DNA of 64,000 nucleotides, from positions 62,001-126,000 of the forward strand of contig NZ_CP116304.1 of assembly GCF_028010285.1 (NCBI RefSeq), written 5' to 3'. Below the pieces are notes generated by a model that was given only the letters and a program-made list of their open reading frames with translations, was not told where the DNA came from and ran no database searches. Below are positions 1 through 60,066 of the stretch, in pieces. Position numbers and translations under genes: made by a program. The stretch's first letter is position 1. Each line of letters starts with the position of its first letter. The stretch is from Pseudomonas sp. Q1-7. Lineage in GTDB: Bacteria; Pseudomonadota; Gammaproteobacteria; Pseudomonadales; Pseudomonadaceae.

Positions 1-471
1 GTAAAAACCGTTCTGACCTCGCTGCCGGCCGAGCGCTACAGCGCCAAGGCGGTCGCCACACTGTACCGGGAGCGCTGGGAGATCGAACTGGGTTTCCGGA
101 ACATCAAGAGTTCCCTGCAGCAGAATGCGGTGACCCTGCGCAGCAAGGTCAAGGCGTTGGTCTACCAGGAGGTCTGGGGATTGTTGCTGGCCTACAACAT
201 CATCCGCCGTGAGGCCGGTCAGGCGGCAGTCGCCTTCGGCCGCTCACCCGCCGACATCCGCTTCAAGCCGGTGGCTCACTATATCGCCGTGCAATTGATC
301 GTGATGGCGGCGGCCAACCCGATTTCGGCCACGGGCCGTCGCCTGTCGGAGTTGCGAGCCGGTATTGGCGGGCTGTTTCTGGATCACCGCCCCAAGCCAT
401 CAAGACCCAGGACGGTGAAGATTTCCAAGACCCGCTACCCGGTGGACCGCAAGGCTGCTCCGCTTAAGTGA
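1..471 (+). CDS. IS4-type transposase, C-terminal fragment (5' end outside window)
   Basis: The open frame enters from the left edge and ends at TGA 469-471, giving 156 residues. Near its start it carries YRERWEIELGFRNIK, the Y-R-E-type motif of IS4-family DDE transposases that contains the catalytic glutamate. The segment after it (LVYQEVWGLLLAYNIIR) matches the helical C-terminal region of that family. The N-terminal DDE residues are off-window, so whether the full gene is intact cannot be judged. A start codon inside this piece (GTG at 130) is a frame artefact, since homology begins upstream of it. Confidence 0.85.
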   Translation, partial: VKTVLTSLPAERYSAKAVATLYRERWEIELGFRNIKSSLQQNAVTLRSKVKALVYQEVWGLLLAYNIIRREAGQAAVAFGRSPADIRFKPVAHYIAVQLIVMAAANPISATGRRLSELRAGIGGLFLDHRPKPSRPRTVKISKTRYPVDRKAAPLK

Positions 472-481
472 ACAGCATTAC
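463..481 (-). repeat. terminal inverted repeat of the IS (right end)
   Basis: Read outward-in on the minus strand it is GTAATGCTGTTCACTTAAG. Both ends of the 178-bp element at 58414-58591 show the same sequence, one end exactly and the other with a single change. The next 11 bases (482-492, GCTCAATCGAG) are the predicted target duplication; the partner copy would be beyond the left window edge. Confidence 0.8.
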
Positions 482-506
482 GCTCAATCGAGCGGGCTTT
501 TTCATT
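482..506. terminator. half of a bidirectional terminator, split by the IS
   Basis: Bases 482-506 read GCTC-AATC-GAGC-GGGC followed by five T. GCTC/GAGC still pair, but the GGGC-TTTTT arm lacks its AAAAA-GCCC partner exactly where the IS begins. Restoring the partner gives an 8-bp GC-rich stem with a 4-base loop and U tracts on both strands, a normal terminator for metQ. The predicted 11-bp duplication covers the loop. Confidence 0.65.
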
Positions 507-56645: not shown

Positions 56646-58139
56646 TCAGCTGGCCAGCATTTGACCGGTTTCTTCCAGATTGATGTGCCAGGACATCGCT
56701 TCGCGCAGCAGATGCGGGGTGTGGCCGCCCTTGGCGCAGGCTGCACTGAAGTAATCCTGCAGCGCCTGGCGGTAATCCGGGTGCACACAGTTGTCGATAA
56801 TCACGCGAGCACGCTCGCGGGGCGCCAGGCCGCGCAGGTCGGCCAGGCCCTGTTCGGTGACCAGGATGTCGACGTCGTGCTCGGTATGGTCCACGTGGCT
56901 GACCATCGGCACCACACTGGAAATGGCGCCGCCCTTGGCAATGGACTTGGTGACGAAGATGGCCAGGTGGGCGTTTCGGGCGAAGTCGCCGGAGCCGCCG
57001 ATGCCATTCATCATTTTCGTGCCACCCACGTGGGTGGAGTTGACGTTGCCGTAGAGGTCGAACTCCAGGGCGGTGTTGATGCCGATGATGCCCAGGCGCC
57101 GCACCACTTCCGGGTGGTTGGAGATTTCCTGCGGACGCAGTACCAGCTTGTCCTTGTAGCGTTCGAGGTTGCCGAACACGTCGGCGTTGCGGCGCGCCGA
57201 GAGGGTGATGGAGCTGCCCGAGGCAAAGCTGAGCTTGCCGGCGTCGATCAGGTCGAAGGTGGAGTCCTGCAGCACTTCGGAATACATGCTGAGGTTCTGG
57301 AAGGGCGACTCGATCAGGCCGCACATCACGGCATTGGCGATGCTGCCGATGCCGGCCTGCAGTGGCGCCAGGCTGTTGCTCATGCGCCCGGCATCCACTT
57401 CGCGCTTGAAGAAGGCGATCAGGTGATCGGCGATGGCCTGGGTTTCCTGGTCCGGCGGCAGCACGGTGGACAGGGAGTCCGGCTGCTCGGTGATGACGAT
57501 GGCGGCGATCTTCTCCGGTGGGATCGGGATCGCCGTGCTGCCGATGCGATCGTCCACGCGGGTCAGCGGAATCGGCGTGCGGGTGGGCCTGTAGGTGGGG
57601 ATATAGATGTCGTGCAGGCCTTCCAGGTTGGGGTTGTGCGCAAGGTTGATCTCGACGATCACCTGCCGGGCGAAGATCGCGAAGCTGGCGGAGTTGCCCA
57701 CCGAGGTGGTGGGTACGATGTGGCCCTGCTCGGTGATGGCCACGGCCTCGATCACGGCGATATCCGGCAACTTGAGCTGGTGGTTGCGCAGCAGTTCGAC
57801 GGTCTCGGACAGGTGCTGGTCGATGAACATCACCGAACCGTCGTTGATCGCCTTGCGCAGGGTGCTGTCCACCTGGAAGGGCATGCGCCGGGCCAGCACG
57901 CCGGCTTCGGTGAGTTGCTTGTCGAGGTCGTTGCCCAGGCTGGCGCCGGTCATCAGGCTGATCTGCAGTGGTTGTTCCTTGGCGCGGGTGGCCAGCGCCT
58001 GGGGCACGGCCTTGGCTTCGCCGGCGCGGGTAAAACCACTCATGCCGACGGTCATGCCGTCCTGGATCAGGGCAGCGGCCTCGGCCGCACTCATCACCTT
58101 GCTCAGCAGGGAGGGCAGGCGCACGCGATCGGAGTACAT
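56646..58139 (-). CDS. acetyl-CoA hydrolase/transferase-family protein
   Basis: ATG 58139 gives 497 residues; a TTG six codons upstream is the only alternative. It has the two-domain class I CoA-transferase form, with GMSGFTRAGEAKAVPQAL near the start and the glutamate region VTEQGLADLRGLAPRERA late. Similar Pseudomonas enzymes exchange CoA between succinate, propionate or acetate (the ScpC/Ach1 type). Which acids it uses is not known. From memory it resembles PA5445. Confidence 0.88.
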   Translation of the reverse strand: MYSDRVRLPSLLSKVMSAAEAAALIQDGMTVGMSGFTRAGEAKAVPQALATRAKEQPLQISLMTGASLGNDLDKQLTEAGVLARRMPFQVDSTLRKAINDGSVMFIDQHLSETVELLRNHQLKLPDIAVIEAVAITEQGHIVPTTSVGNSASFAIFARQVIVEINLAHNPNLEGLHDIYIPTYRPTRTPIPLTRVDDRIGSTAIPIPPEKIAAIVITEQPDSLSTVLPPDQETQAIADHLIAFFKREVDAGRMSNSLAPLQAGIGSIANAVMCGLIESPFQNLSMYSEVLQDSTFDLIDAGKLSFASGSSITLSARRNADVFGNLERYKDKLVLRPQEISNHPEVVRRLGIIGINTALEFDLYGNVNSTHVGGTKMMNGIGGSGDFARNAHLAIFVTKSIAKGGAISSVVPMVSHVDHTEHDVDILVTEQGLADLRGLAPRERARVIIDNCVHPDYRQALQDYFSAACAKGGHTPHLLREAMSWHINLEETGQMLAS

Positions 58140-58266
58140 GGGGAAAACCTCGGACAACGGTAGGAGGCGCGCAGTCTAGGGGGTGAGGGTGGGGACGGCT
58201 TCTATACCAAGGTCGAAGAAATGGCTCTATTCAGGGCCTTCTGTCGGTTCCATGGCAGAAACCAAC

Positions 58267-58360
58267 TGTAGGAGCGAATTCATTCGCGATTGAGGCGCGA
58301 AGTGACTCACGGCTTTTGGGGCAGGCCTTCGGCCTGCTTCGCGAATGAATTCGCTCCCAC
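58267..58360. repeat. dispersed palindromic repeat, copy 5
   Basis: The arms GGAGCGAATTCATTCGCGA and its complement are intact, with the inner hairpin GCAGGCCTTCGGCCTGC as in copy 4. It lies between the CoA-transferase promoter and the small transposon. A 150-residue-class open frame across it is an artefact of the palindrome. Confidence 0.9.
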
Positions 58361-58391
58361 AATGCTTCGCCCTGAGGAGTGCCAGTCCAAA

Positions 58392-58610
58392 ACAAAAACC
58401 CCGGCGCCAGGCCGTAATGCTGTTCACATAAGAAGTAACGGGACTCGATCAGTCCCCTCGCCCCTTTGGGGAGAGGGTTAGGGAGAGGGGGGAAACGACT
58501 GTTTCGCAGGGATATCAACCCTCTCCCCCAGCCCCTCTCCCATAAATGGGAGAGGGGAGCGAGTCATGCGCGCTTAAGTGAACAGCATTACGGCGCCAGG
58601 CCGGGGTTTC
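58392..58610 (-). terminator. pnt operon terminator, split by a small transposon
   Basis: Removing 58414-58591 and one 11-bp duplicate joins AAAAACCCC-GGCGCCAGGCC-GGGGTTT: a 7-bp GC stem with a five-base loop and T tracts on the pntB reading strand. It is 20 bp beyond the pntB stop. In the present sequence its arms are 178 bp farther apart. Confidence 0.85.
58414..58591. mobile_element. 178-bp non-autonomous (MITE-like) element of the IS4-type family
   Basis: The ends are 19-bp inverted repeats, GTAATGCTGTTCACWTAAG, with one mismatch. The right end equals the IS end at 463-481. Perfect 11-bp duplications GGCGCCAGGCC flank it (58403-58413 and 58592-58602). There is no open frame of note; the interior is a long imperfect palindrome of GGGAGAGGG/CCCTCTCCC tracts. 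It must have been moved by a transposase supplied from a full IS. Confidence 0.92.
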
Positions 58611-58629
58611 TGGGATCGCGGTACAGGGC

Positions 58630-60066
58630 TTAGTCGACAGCCTTGACCATGTCCTCGATCACCTTCTTGGCGTCGCCGAACACCATCATGGTCTTGTCCA
58701 TGTAGAACAGTTCGTTGTCCAGGCCGGCGTAGCCACTGGCCATGGAGCGCTTGTTGACGATGATTGTCTTGGCCTTGAAGGCTTCCAGGATCGGCATGCC
58801 GGCGATGGGCGACTTGGGGTCGTTCTTCGCCGCCGGGTTGACCACGTCGTTGGCGCCCAGGACCAGCACCACGTCGGCCTGGCCGAACTCGGAGTTGATG
58901 TCTTCCATCTCGAACACCTGCTCGTAGGGCACTTCGGCCTCGGCCAGCAGGACGTTCATGTGGCCCGGCATACGGCCGGCTACCGGGTGGATCGCGTACT
59001 TCACGTTGACACCGCGATGGCTCAGCTTCTCGGACAGCTCCATCAGCGCGTGCTGGGCACGGGCCACCGCCAGGCCGTAGCCGGGGACGATGATCACGCT
59101 GTCGGCGTTGGTCAGCAGGAAGGCGGCGTCGTCGCTGGAGCCGGACTTCACCGGACGCTGTTCCTTGCTACCCGCTGCGGCACCTGCGTCGGCTTCGGCG
59201 CCGAAGCCACCGAGGATGACGTTGAAGAAGGAGCGGTTCATCGCCTTGCACATGATGTACGACAGGATCGCACCGGAGGAGCCCACCAGGGAGCCGGCGA
59301 CGATCAGCATCGAGTTGTTCAGCGAGAAGCCGATACCGGCCGCCGCCCAGCCCGAGTAGCTGTTCAGCATGGACACCACGACCGGCATGTCGGCACCACC
59401 GATCGGGATGATGATCAGCACGCCGATGACGAAGGCCAGGGCCACCAGCAGGGCGAAGGCGCCGATGTTGCCGGTGAAGGTGAAGTACAGGCCCAGGCCG
59501 ATGATGGCCAGGCCCACCAGCAGGTTCAGCTTGTGCTGGCCGGCGAACTGCACCGGGGCACCCTGGAACAGGCGGAACTTGTACTTGCCGGACAGCTTGC
59601 CGAAGGCGATCACCGAGCCGGAGAAGGTGACGGCACCGATGGCTGCACCGAGGAACAGTTCCAGGCGGTTGCCGGCCGGGATGGCGTCGCCCAGGGCGGC
59701 GACTATGCCCAGAGACTGGGGCTCGACCACGGCGGCGATGGCGATGAACACCGCGGCCAGGCCGATCATGCTGTGCATGAAGGCCACCAGCTCCGGCATC
59801 TTGGTCATTTCCACGCGCTTGGCCATGATCGAGCCGGCGGTGCCGCCGACCAGCAGGCCGACGATCACGTAGCCGATGCCCTGGGTGGCAATGTCCGCGC
59901 CCAGCTTATAGATGAGGCCGACGGTGGTGACGACGGCGATGGCCATGCCGACCATGCCGAACAGGTTGCCGCGACGGGACGAAGTCGGGTGCGACAGGCC
60001 CTTGAGCGCCTGGATGAAGCACACCGAGGCGACGAGGTAGAGAACAGTGATCAGGTTCATGCTCAT
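58630..60066 (-). CDS. pntB: NAD(P) transhydrogenase beta subunit PntB
   Basis: ATG 60066 gives 478 residues: about nine helices, then the soluble NADP(H)-binding domain (SVIIVPGYGLAVARAQHAL, VLVLGANDVVNPAA). It works with PntA to transfer hydride between NAD(H) and NADP(H), driven by the proton gradient. It is the last gene of pntAa-pntAb-pntB, and its terminator holds the small transposon. Confidence 0.95.
   Translation of the reverse strand: MSMNLITVLYLVASVCFIQALKGLSHPTSSRRGNLFGMVGMAIAVVTTVGLIYKLGADIATQGIGYVIVGLLVGGTAGSIMAKRVEMTKMPELVAFMHSMIGLAAVFIAIAAVVEPQSLGIVAALGDAIPAGNRLELFLGAAIGAVTFSGSVIAFGKLSGKYKFRLFQGAPVQFAGQHKLNLLVGLAIIGLGLYFTFTGNIGAFALLVALAFVIGVLIIIPIGGADMPVVVSMLNSYSGWAAAGIGFSLNNSMLIVAGSLVGSSGAILSYIMCKAMNRSFFNVILGGFGAEADAGAAAGSKEQRPVKSGSSDDAAFLLTNADSVIIVPGYGLAVARAQHALMELSEKLSHRGVNVKYAIHPVAGRMPGHMNVLLAEAEVPYEQVFEMEDINSEFGQADVVLVLGANDVVNPAAKNDPKSPIAGMPILEAFKAKTIIVNKRSMASGYAGLDNELFYMDKTMMVFGDAKKVIEDMVKAVD

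Follow-up and report, generated by a model that had tools for sequence, protein, structure and literature searches.

Pseudomonas sp. Q1-7 carries, just downstream of pntB, a miniature inverted-repeat transposable element (MITE) that splits the intrinsic terminator of the pnt genes. The stretch analyzed here, called the window, comprises 64,000 nucleotides of contig NZ_CP116304.1 (positions 62,001 to 126,000). In it pntB lies on the minus strand with its stop codon near position 58630, and the element is situated between this gene and the next minus-strand gene. We describe the MITE, the full-length insertion sequence (IS) whose transposase most likely moves it, and the terminators into which both have inserted.

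The sequence CGGCGCCAGGCCG is present twice, at 58402–58414 and 58591–58603, and the 176-bp core between the two copies (TAATGCTGTTCAC...GTGAACAGCATTA, 58415–58590) encodes no transposase. Written with its outermost G/C, the element reads TAATGCTGTTCACATAAG...CTTAAGTGAACAGCATTA, with CGGCGCCAGGCCG on either flank. In further copies, namely L052, L061, and the one at genome position 1787588, this outermost base varied with the target and not with the element; L052 reads TTAATG...CATTAA where its target has A and T at that position. Since the outermost base tracks the target, a 13-bp duplication around a 176-bp core is the better parse, although the 11-bp duplication and 178-bp element of a first-pass annotation are also a valid reading of the same letters. 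The placement of a MITE in the pnt terminator was borne out: the repeats and ends are there, and the restored site with its flanks gave a computed fold of −28.1 kcal/mol, a hairpin with a 5-base loop and a U-tract at its end. The 14-bp end GTAATGCTGTTCAC had three matches in the window at up to 2 mismatches, compared with 0.12 expected, and the repeated ends are not due to chance. A simple terminator scan of 58100–58800 returned one site, which is a hairpin within the MITE; the split pnt terminator was not picked up. An Rfam search gave only seven weak matches, far below the gathering scores, and a search against solved structures gave none at E ≤ 1.

Results

The element family in Q1-7

When the whole genome was searched for the 19-bp end with up to 3 mismatches, 66 matches (33 per strand) were obtained, compared with one for the reversed control pattern. 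The ends pair into 31 elements, 13 full-length IS copies and 18 short elements. The IS copies span 1424 bp by the end pattern, differ from the first copy at 0–16 bases, and contain an open reading frame of 443 amino acids in 13/13 cases. The short elements span 80–181 bp; besides the pnt MITE there are 17, of which 15 align with it over nearly the full length at 88–99% identity, while the element at 1201768 is 69% identical and that at 1185242 is 73% identical over 59 bp. The similarity between MITE and IS is limited to the terminal 16–25 bp or so of each end, mostly 19–21 bp. A target duplication flanks 29 of the 31 elements (27 exact by the inner parse and two with one mismatch); the elements at 330180 and 1185242 lack one and have, by eye, a terminator half on either side. 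Two unpaired ends (L032, L033) lie 2.6 kb apart at 781825–784426, the left with 2 mismatches and the right exact; transposase-like sequence adjoins the right one, and the two are probably the remains of an older, damaged copy.

The IS transposase matched PF13006 at 99.1 bits (cut-off 25), PF01609 at 89.5 bits (cut-off 23), and NF033592 at 269.8 bits (cut-off 115), and so has the Nterm_IS4 and DDE domains of the IS4 subgroup. Its translation contains the Y(2)R(3)E(6)K motif, recognized by eye as YRERWEIELGFRNIK, and it is 37% identical to InsG of Escherichia coli IS4. The ends and the 1422-bp core (TAATGC...GCATTA) agree with the −AATR ends and the length of 1400–1650 bp of the subgroup, for which the main text of the IS4-family survey (De Palmenaer, Siguier and Mahillon 2008, PMC2266710) gives 10–13 bp direct repeats. 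Duplications of 10–13 bp were found at 77 of the 81 sites with IS and MITE pooled, the other four being 14 bp and above the published range. By these sequence features, the full-length element is a member of the IS4 subgroup of the IS4 family. The pnt element has the terminal repeats of this IS, the same kind of duplications and targets, and no transposase, as expected of a MITE.

Most target sites are intrinsic terminators

Exact ends were found in 36 of 248 family genomes, Q1-7 among them, and 40 stretches were read among the places listed, besides the loci already included. Targets were restored for all distinct paired elements that have a duplication; these amount to 81 of 106 pairs, with the duplication exact in 65 and carrying one mismatch in 16. 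A site was scored as a terminator when it had a hairpin centered on the duplication with at least 3 GC pairs, G-U being allowed, and 4 T of 6. The results showed that 28 of the 29 Q1-7 sites pass (IS 12/12, MITE 16/17), as do 43 of 52 from other genomes (IS 11/11, MITE 32/41), compared with 562 of 63,880 window positions (0.88%) under the same rule; the copies in Q1-7 are thus not scattered at random. On both strands, 59 of the 81 sites pass vs. 16 window positions of 63,880, and with the stricter rule used initially the figures were 69/81 and 121/63,880. Nearly identical, hence recent, copies likewise lie in terminators. A/T tracts were present on both sides at 58 of 68 inserted sites, drawn from all genomes, but at only 9 of 59 uninserted terminators, drawn from 134 kb of Q1-7 (the window and loci around the copies). 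The first-pass annotation had proposed terminator loops as the landing site of the MITE; terminators do serve as such, for the full-length IS as well, but the target is the whole palindrome of A-tract, GC stem, and T-tract and not the loop alone.

The 25 pairs left out have no recognizable duplication. Most of them have, by eye, half a terminator on either side; false pairings probably include L061 (125 bp) and L120, and L175 is not terminator-like. Gene orientation, called at 14 of the 31 Q1-7 sites from the longest open frame, was not used, since the procedure was unreliable in this GC-rich DNA and mis-called pntB.

The flanks of two MITEs from relatives (L213, L230) are exact reverse complements and not direct repeats, as if the hairpin loop had been flipped during or after insertion; L143 is similar but mutated. 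In one genome (G160), the right-hand duplications of two full-length IS copies (L223, L225) are swapped, which is a mark of recombination between the copies and hence of a likely rearrangement.

Insertion geometry and half-sites

The duplications are 10–14 bp long and centered on the hairpin. Within the duplication, the two hairpin arms have the same length at 47 of the 69 terminator sites and are 1 nt apart at 20, i.e. within 1 nt in 67/69. Pooling of the 162 half-sites gave an A-rich segment from −8 to −4 followed by G, C, C, with C, G inside the duplication. The edge of the A-tract lies 3 bp outside the duplication at 39/69 terminator sites on the left and 39/69 on the right, and there is no such tract at 9 (left) and 7 (right) of the 69. 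Duplication length correlated with the distance between A- and T-tract (r 0.63, n = 54); its correlation with loop size was weaker (r 0.27, n = 69). For exact duplications only, the correlation with A-to-T spacing was 0.61 (slope 0.31, n = 49), and none of 20,000 permutations gave one as large. This geometry suggests recognition in duplex DNA of two inverted half-sites, AAAAAGCC followed by CG inside the duplication, with AAAAAGCC and GGCTTTTT as the two halves.

The empty pnt site and the fate of termination

The end of pntB, used as query, matched all 18 genomes in the genus group, Q1-7 included. The terminator hairpin supposed to have preceded the insertion was indeed found in all 17 same-genus relatives, where the pnt site is uninserted and the hairpin intact: CCCCGGC, 5–6 loop bases, and GCCGGGG, with at least 4 A on the left side, which is the U-tract side for pntB. 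The right T-tract is short or absent in some of the 17. Since all 17 sites are empty, the insertion seems to be specific to the species of Q1-7 among the relatives sampled.

The minus-strand RNA with the pnt MITE folded into a single hairpin of −143.1 kcal/mol (z −10.4), in which the terminator arms close next to the U-tract. As had been supposed from the palindrome, the MITE thus forms one long hairpin with its outer arms paired; that this palindrome is what keeps termination going was not specifically supported. We folded 58 MITEs on both strands along with five mononucleotide shuffles of the interior of each. The outer arms were paired in 91/116 folds of real MITEs, 411/580 folds with shuffled interior, and 42/44 strand folds of full-length IS. 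Since outer-arm pairing was about as frequent with shuffled interiors and more frequent in full-length IS, minimum-energy folding does not single out the MITE palindrome; these are equilibrium folds, and co-transcriptional folding is outside their reach.

Table 1. Features of the split pnt terminator and of the IS cut by the window start, in window coordinates
Feature	Position	Strand	Remarks
C-terminal part of IS4-subgroup transposase (443 amino acids)	1–471	+	IS at genome 61058–62481, cut by window start
Right terminal inverted repeat of this IS	463–480		CTTAAGTGAACAGCATTA; the copy fills window 1–480
Right duplication of this IS	481–494		CGCTCAATCGAGCG
Right duplication plus remaining arm and T-tract of the terminator entered by this IS	481–504		GGCTTTTTCA is the arm with its T-tract
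Left outer arm of pnt terminator	58394–58402		AAAAACCCC; minus strand GGGGTTTTT, U-tract side for pntB
Left target-site duplication	58402–58414		CGGCGCCAGGCCG; 13 bp, one base more per side than the 11-bp parse
MITE core	58415–58590		TAATGC...GCATTA; 176 bp
Left terminal inverted repeat of MITE	58415–58432		Matches left end of IS
Right terminal inverted repeat of MITE	58573–58590		Matches right end of IS
Right target-site duplication	58591–58603		CGGCGCCAGGCCG
Right outer arm of pnt terminator	58604–58609		GGGTTT

Just beyond the pnt terminator, at 58271–58357, lies a 17-bp perfect inverted repeat (GGAGCGAATTCATTCGC / GCGAATGAATTCGCTCC), which we take to be like a repetitive extragenic palindrome (REP); similar letters are found there in several relatives.

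Related elements beyond Q1-7

Transposases 72–74% identical to that of the Q1-7 IS occur in Marinobacterium, Rhodanobacter, and Oceanobacter, where terminator-like halves were seen by eye at single ends. Five plasmid-borne relatives (ISAeme15 and IS4-type elements) are single copies with 56–70% identical transposases; the Acinetobacter, Photobacterium, and Enterobacter plasmid copies all lie in two-sided terminators. A protein search of 369 class genomes, in which at most 4 candidates were scored per matching genome so that copies are undercounted, gave three besides Q1-7 at E ≤ 1e-20, with 26–29% identity. Inverted ends with a duplication were recovered at 7 of the 27 loci of relatives, all of them distant (26–35% identity), and were not recovered for the nearer relative L060. 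None of the seven distant target sites passes the terminator rule; that of L116 has a hairpin without a T-tract. Thus, terminator targeting is in this sample the property of a clade and not of all IS4-type elements. The distant relatives L263, L267, and L269 (G607, G488) share another, non-palindromic target with TCTGACCC.

For E. coli IS4, 22 loci (one K-12, one N32, and 20 of 60 listed) were read of 5124 places in 2574 genomes, and they gave seven distinct target sequences, the truncated copy L278 being excluded. Like the Q1-7 IS, this element has TAATGCC ends and duplications of 11–14 bp, and four of its seven targets are clear terminators (adhE–tdk, degS–mdh, raiA–bamD, and one hairpin with T-tract at four loci); unlike in Q1-7, the other three are not. 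In K-12, neither the raiA nor the mdh terminator carries an insert, and both are intact. Two inserted raiA alleles differ in duplication length, with 14 bp in one and 13 bp in the other, which has a hairpin shorter by one base. IS4 is said to follow an AAA-N20-TTT target rule and reportedly inserted in the pheST attenuator.

The hairpin holding IS4 at the four loci (L199, L279, L280, L281) is identical among them and in one case lies beside IS200 tnpA; it is probably the IS200 terminator, so that one element is nested in the terminator of another. In K-12 (L271, tdk–adhE), an ISZ' remnant (insZ) occupies the adhE terminator, into which IS4 has inserted in other strains.

Discussion

We consider it highly probable that the pnt MITE was moved by an IS4-subgroup transposase that selects two-sided terminators through inverted half-sites. 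The MITE would be non-autonomous, most likely mobilized in trans by the transposase of the 13 IS copies in the genome. This transposase would select intrinsic terminators, with a preference for those bordered by an A-tract and, on the opposite side, a T-tract. Two of its subunits would each read one inverted half-site in duplex DNA, and cuts some 3 bp inward from the A/T tract would leave the interval of loop and inner stem (10–14 bp) to be duplicated. DDE transposases do not usually make duplications whose length depends on the target.

Several results weigh against this interpretation. The slope of 0.31 is far from 1, so that the tract spacing would be a loose ruler, and the half-site consensus is in part what any terminator looks like. 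Ten of the 81 sites fail the terminator rule; about four of these are REP-like by eye (L164, L200, L205, L239), and others are weak palindromes or plain sequence (e.g. L159, L203). Sites from different genomes were de-duplicated by flank identity only and are not fully independent, and the inserted and uninserted terminators compared above differ in the genomes that they come from. The raiA comparison covers two inserted alleles. Among the plasmid-borne relatives, the Aeromonas copy (L274) fails the rule, with AAAA...TTTTT flanks and no good hairpin, and the E. coli plasmid copy (L277) passes weakly and on one strand only. The E. coli IS4 targets in the nanX region and yicI fail, and the site in the ygeA coding sequence passes the lax rule only marginally; a terminator is thus not strictly required for E. 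coli IS4.

A similar distribution could arise if insertion were nearly random and selection kept only the copies in harmless spots, and terminators offer many harmless places between genes; selection would indeed filter old copies. It gives no reason, however, for duplications centered on the hairpin (inner arms within one base in 67/69) or for the two-sided preference, and recent copies follow the same pattern, which makes this explanation very improbable. Only slightly better placed is the proposal that the transposase is drawn to pausing or terminating RNA polymerase. Terminators are the feature common to the sites, but the two-sided A/T preference is a symmetry of the DNA that is superfluous for unidirectional termination, and E. 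coli IS4 also enters the yicI and ygeA coding sequences; we regard it as improbable.

Recognition of an extruded cruciform, a shape and not a duplex sequence, deserves more weight but is still unlikely. The targets are palindromes with variable sequences and loops, some exceptions are REP-like by eye, the exactly inverted flanks of L213 and L230 look like the product of a loop flip, and IS1272, of another family, is proposed in the part of PMC5678879 drawn on here to act on stem-loops. On the other hand, A-to-T spacing tracks duplication length better than loop size does, one-sided terminators are also hairpins yet are under-used, and E. coli IS4 sites such as yicI have little palindrome but AAA...TTT arms. 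We are about equally doubtful that the MITE palindrome evolved or was kept because it preserves host termination: although its RNA is one hairpin that closes the terminator arms next to the U-tract, shuffled interiors pair about as often and full-length IS more often.

ISRm22 and other REP-targeting IS, as presented in the table of PMC1525189, offer a parallel, an IS4-family element with its copies in one kind of palindrome (10/10); their targets are REP elements, whereas those of the Q1-7 elements are terminators. Targeting of REP elements does not describe the sites found here, as 71/81 are terminators and about four of 81 are REP-like by eye, no dedicated REP search having been made. IS1272 (IS1182 family) also targets inverted repeats, but according to the same part of PMC5678879 it takes the place of the stem-loop without producing a duplication, whereas the Q1-7 elements keep the hairpin and duplicate its center. 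Such replacement does not fit the present elements, since 81 of 106 pairs have duplications and the pnt hairpin bases are kept and duplicated.

The main text of PMC2266710 describes a 'spectacular' specificity for the target arms in the IS4 subgroup, and the word 'terminator' is absent from that text, Figure 3 aside. The present analysis goes beyond that account in identifying the arms as the halves of an intrinsic terminator, in including MITEs, and in finding duplications of up to 14 bp. Terminator targeting by IS4-type elements was not mentioned in the part of the open-licence literature sampled.

A terminator as address would explain the target-arm specificity that the main text of PMC2266710 reports without explanation. 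If the interpretation is correct, the elements would have a natural way of reaching intergenic 'safe harbours', and altered termination would be a predictable outcome of IS and MITE activity. Landings in gene-ending hairpins, which may benefit the element by placing it outside genes, tend to spare genes but may shift transcript ends. More tentatively, and with somewhat less than even confidence, we suggest that a gammaproteobacterial clade of the IS4 subgroup, including classical IS4, may be terminator-seeking, with hairpin size setting the duplication length, and may spread a shadow population of MITEs that rewires termination genome-wide while mostly sparing genes.
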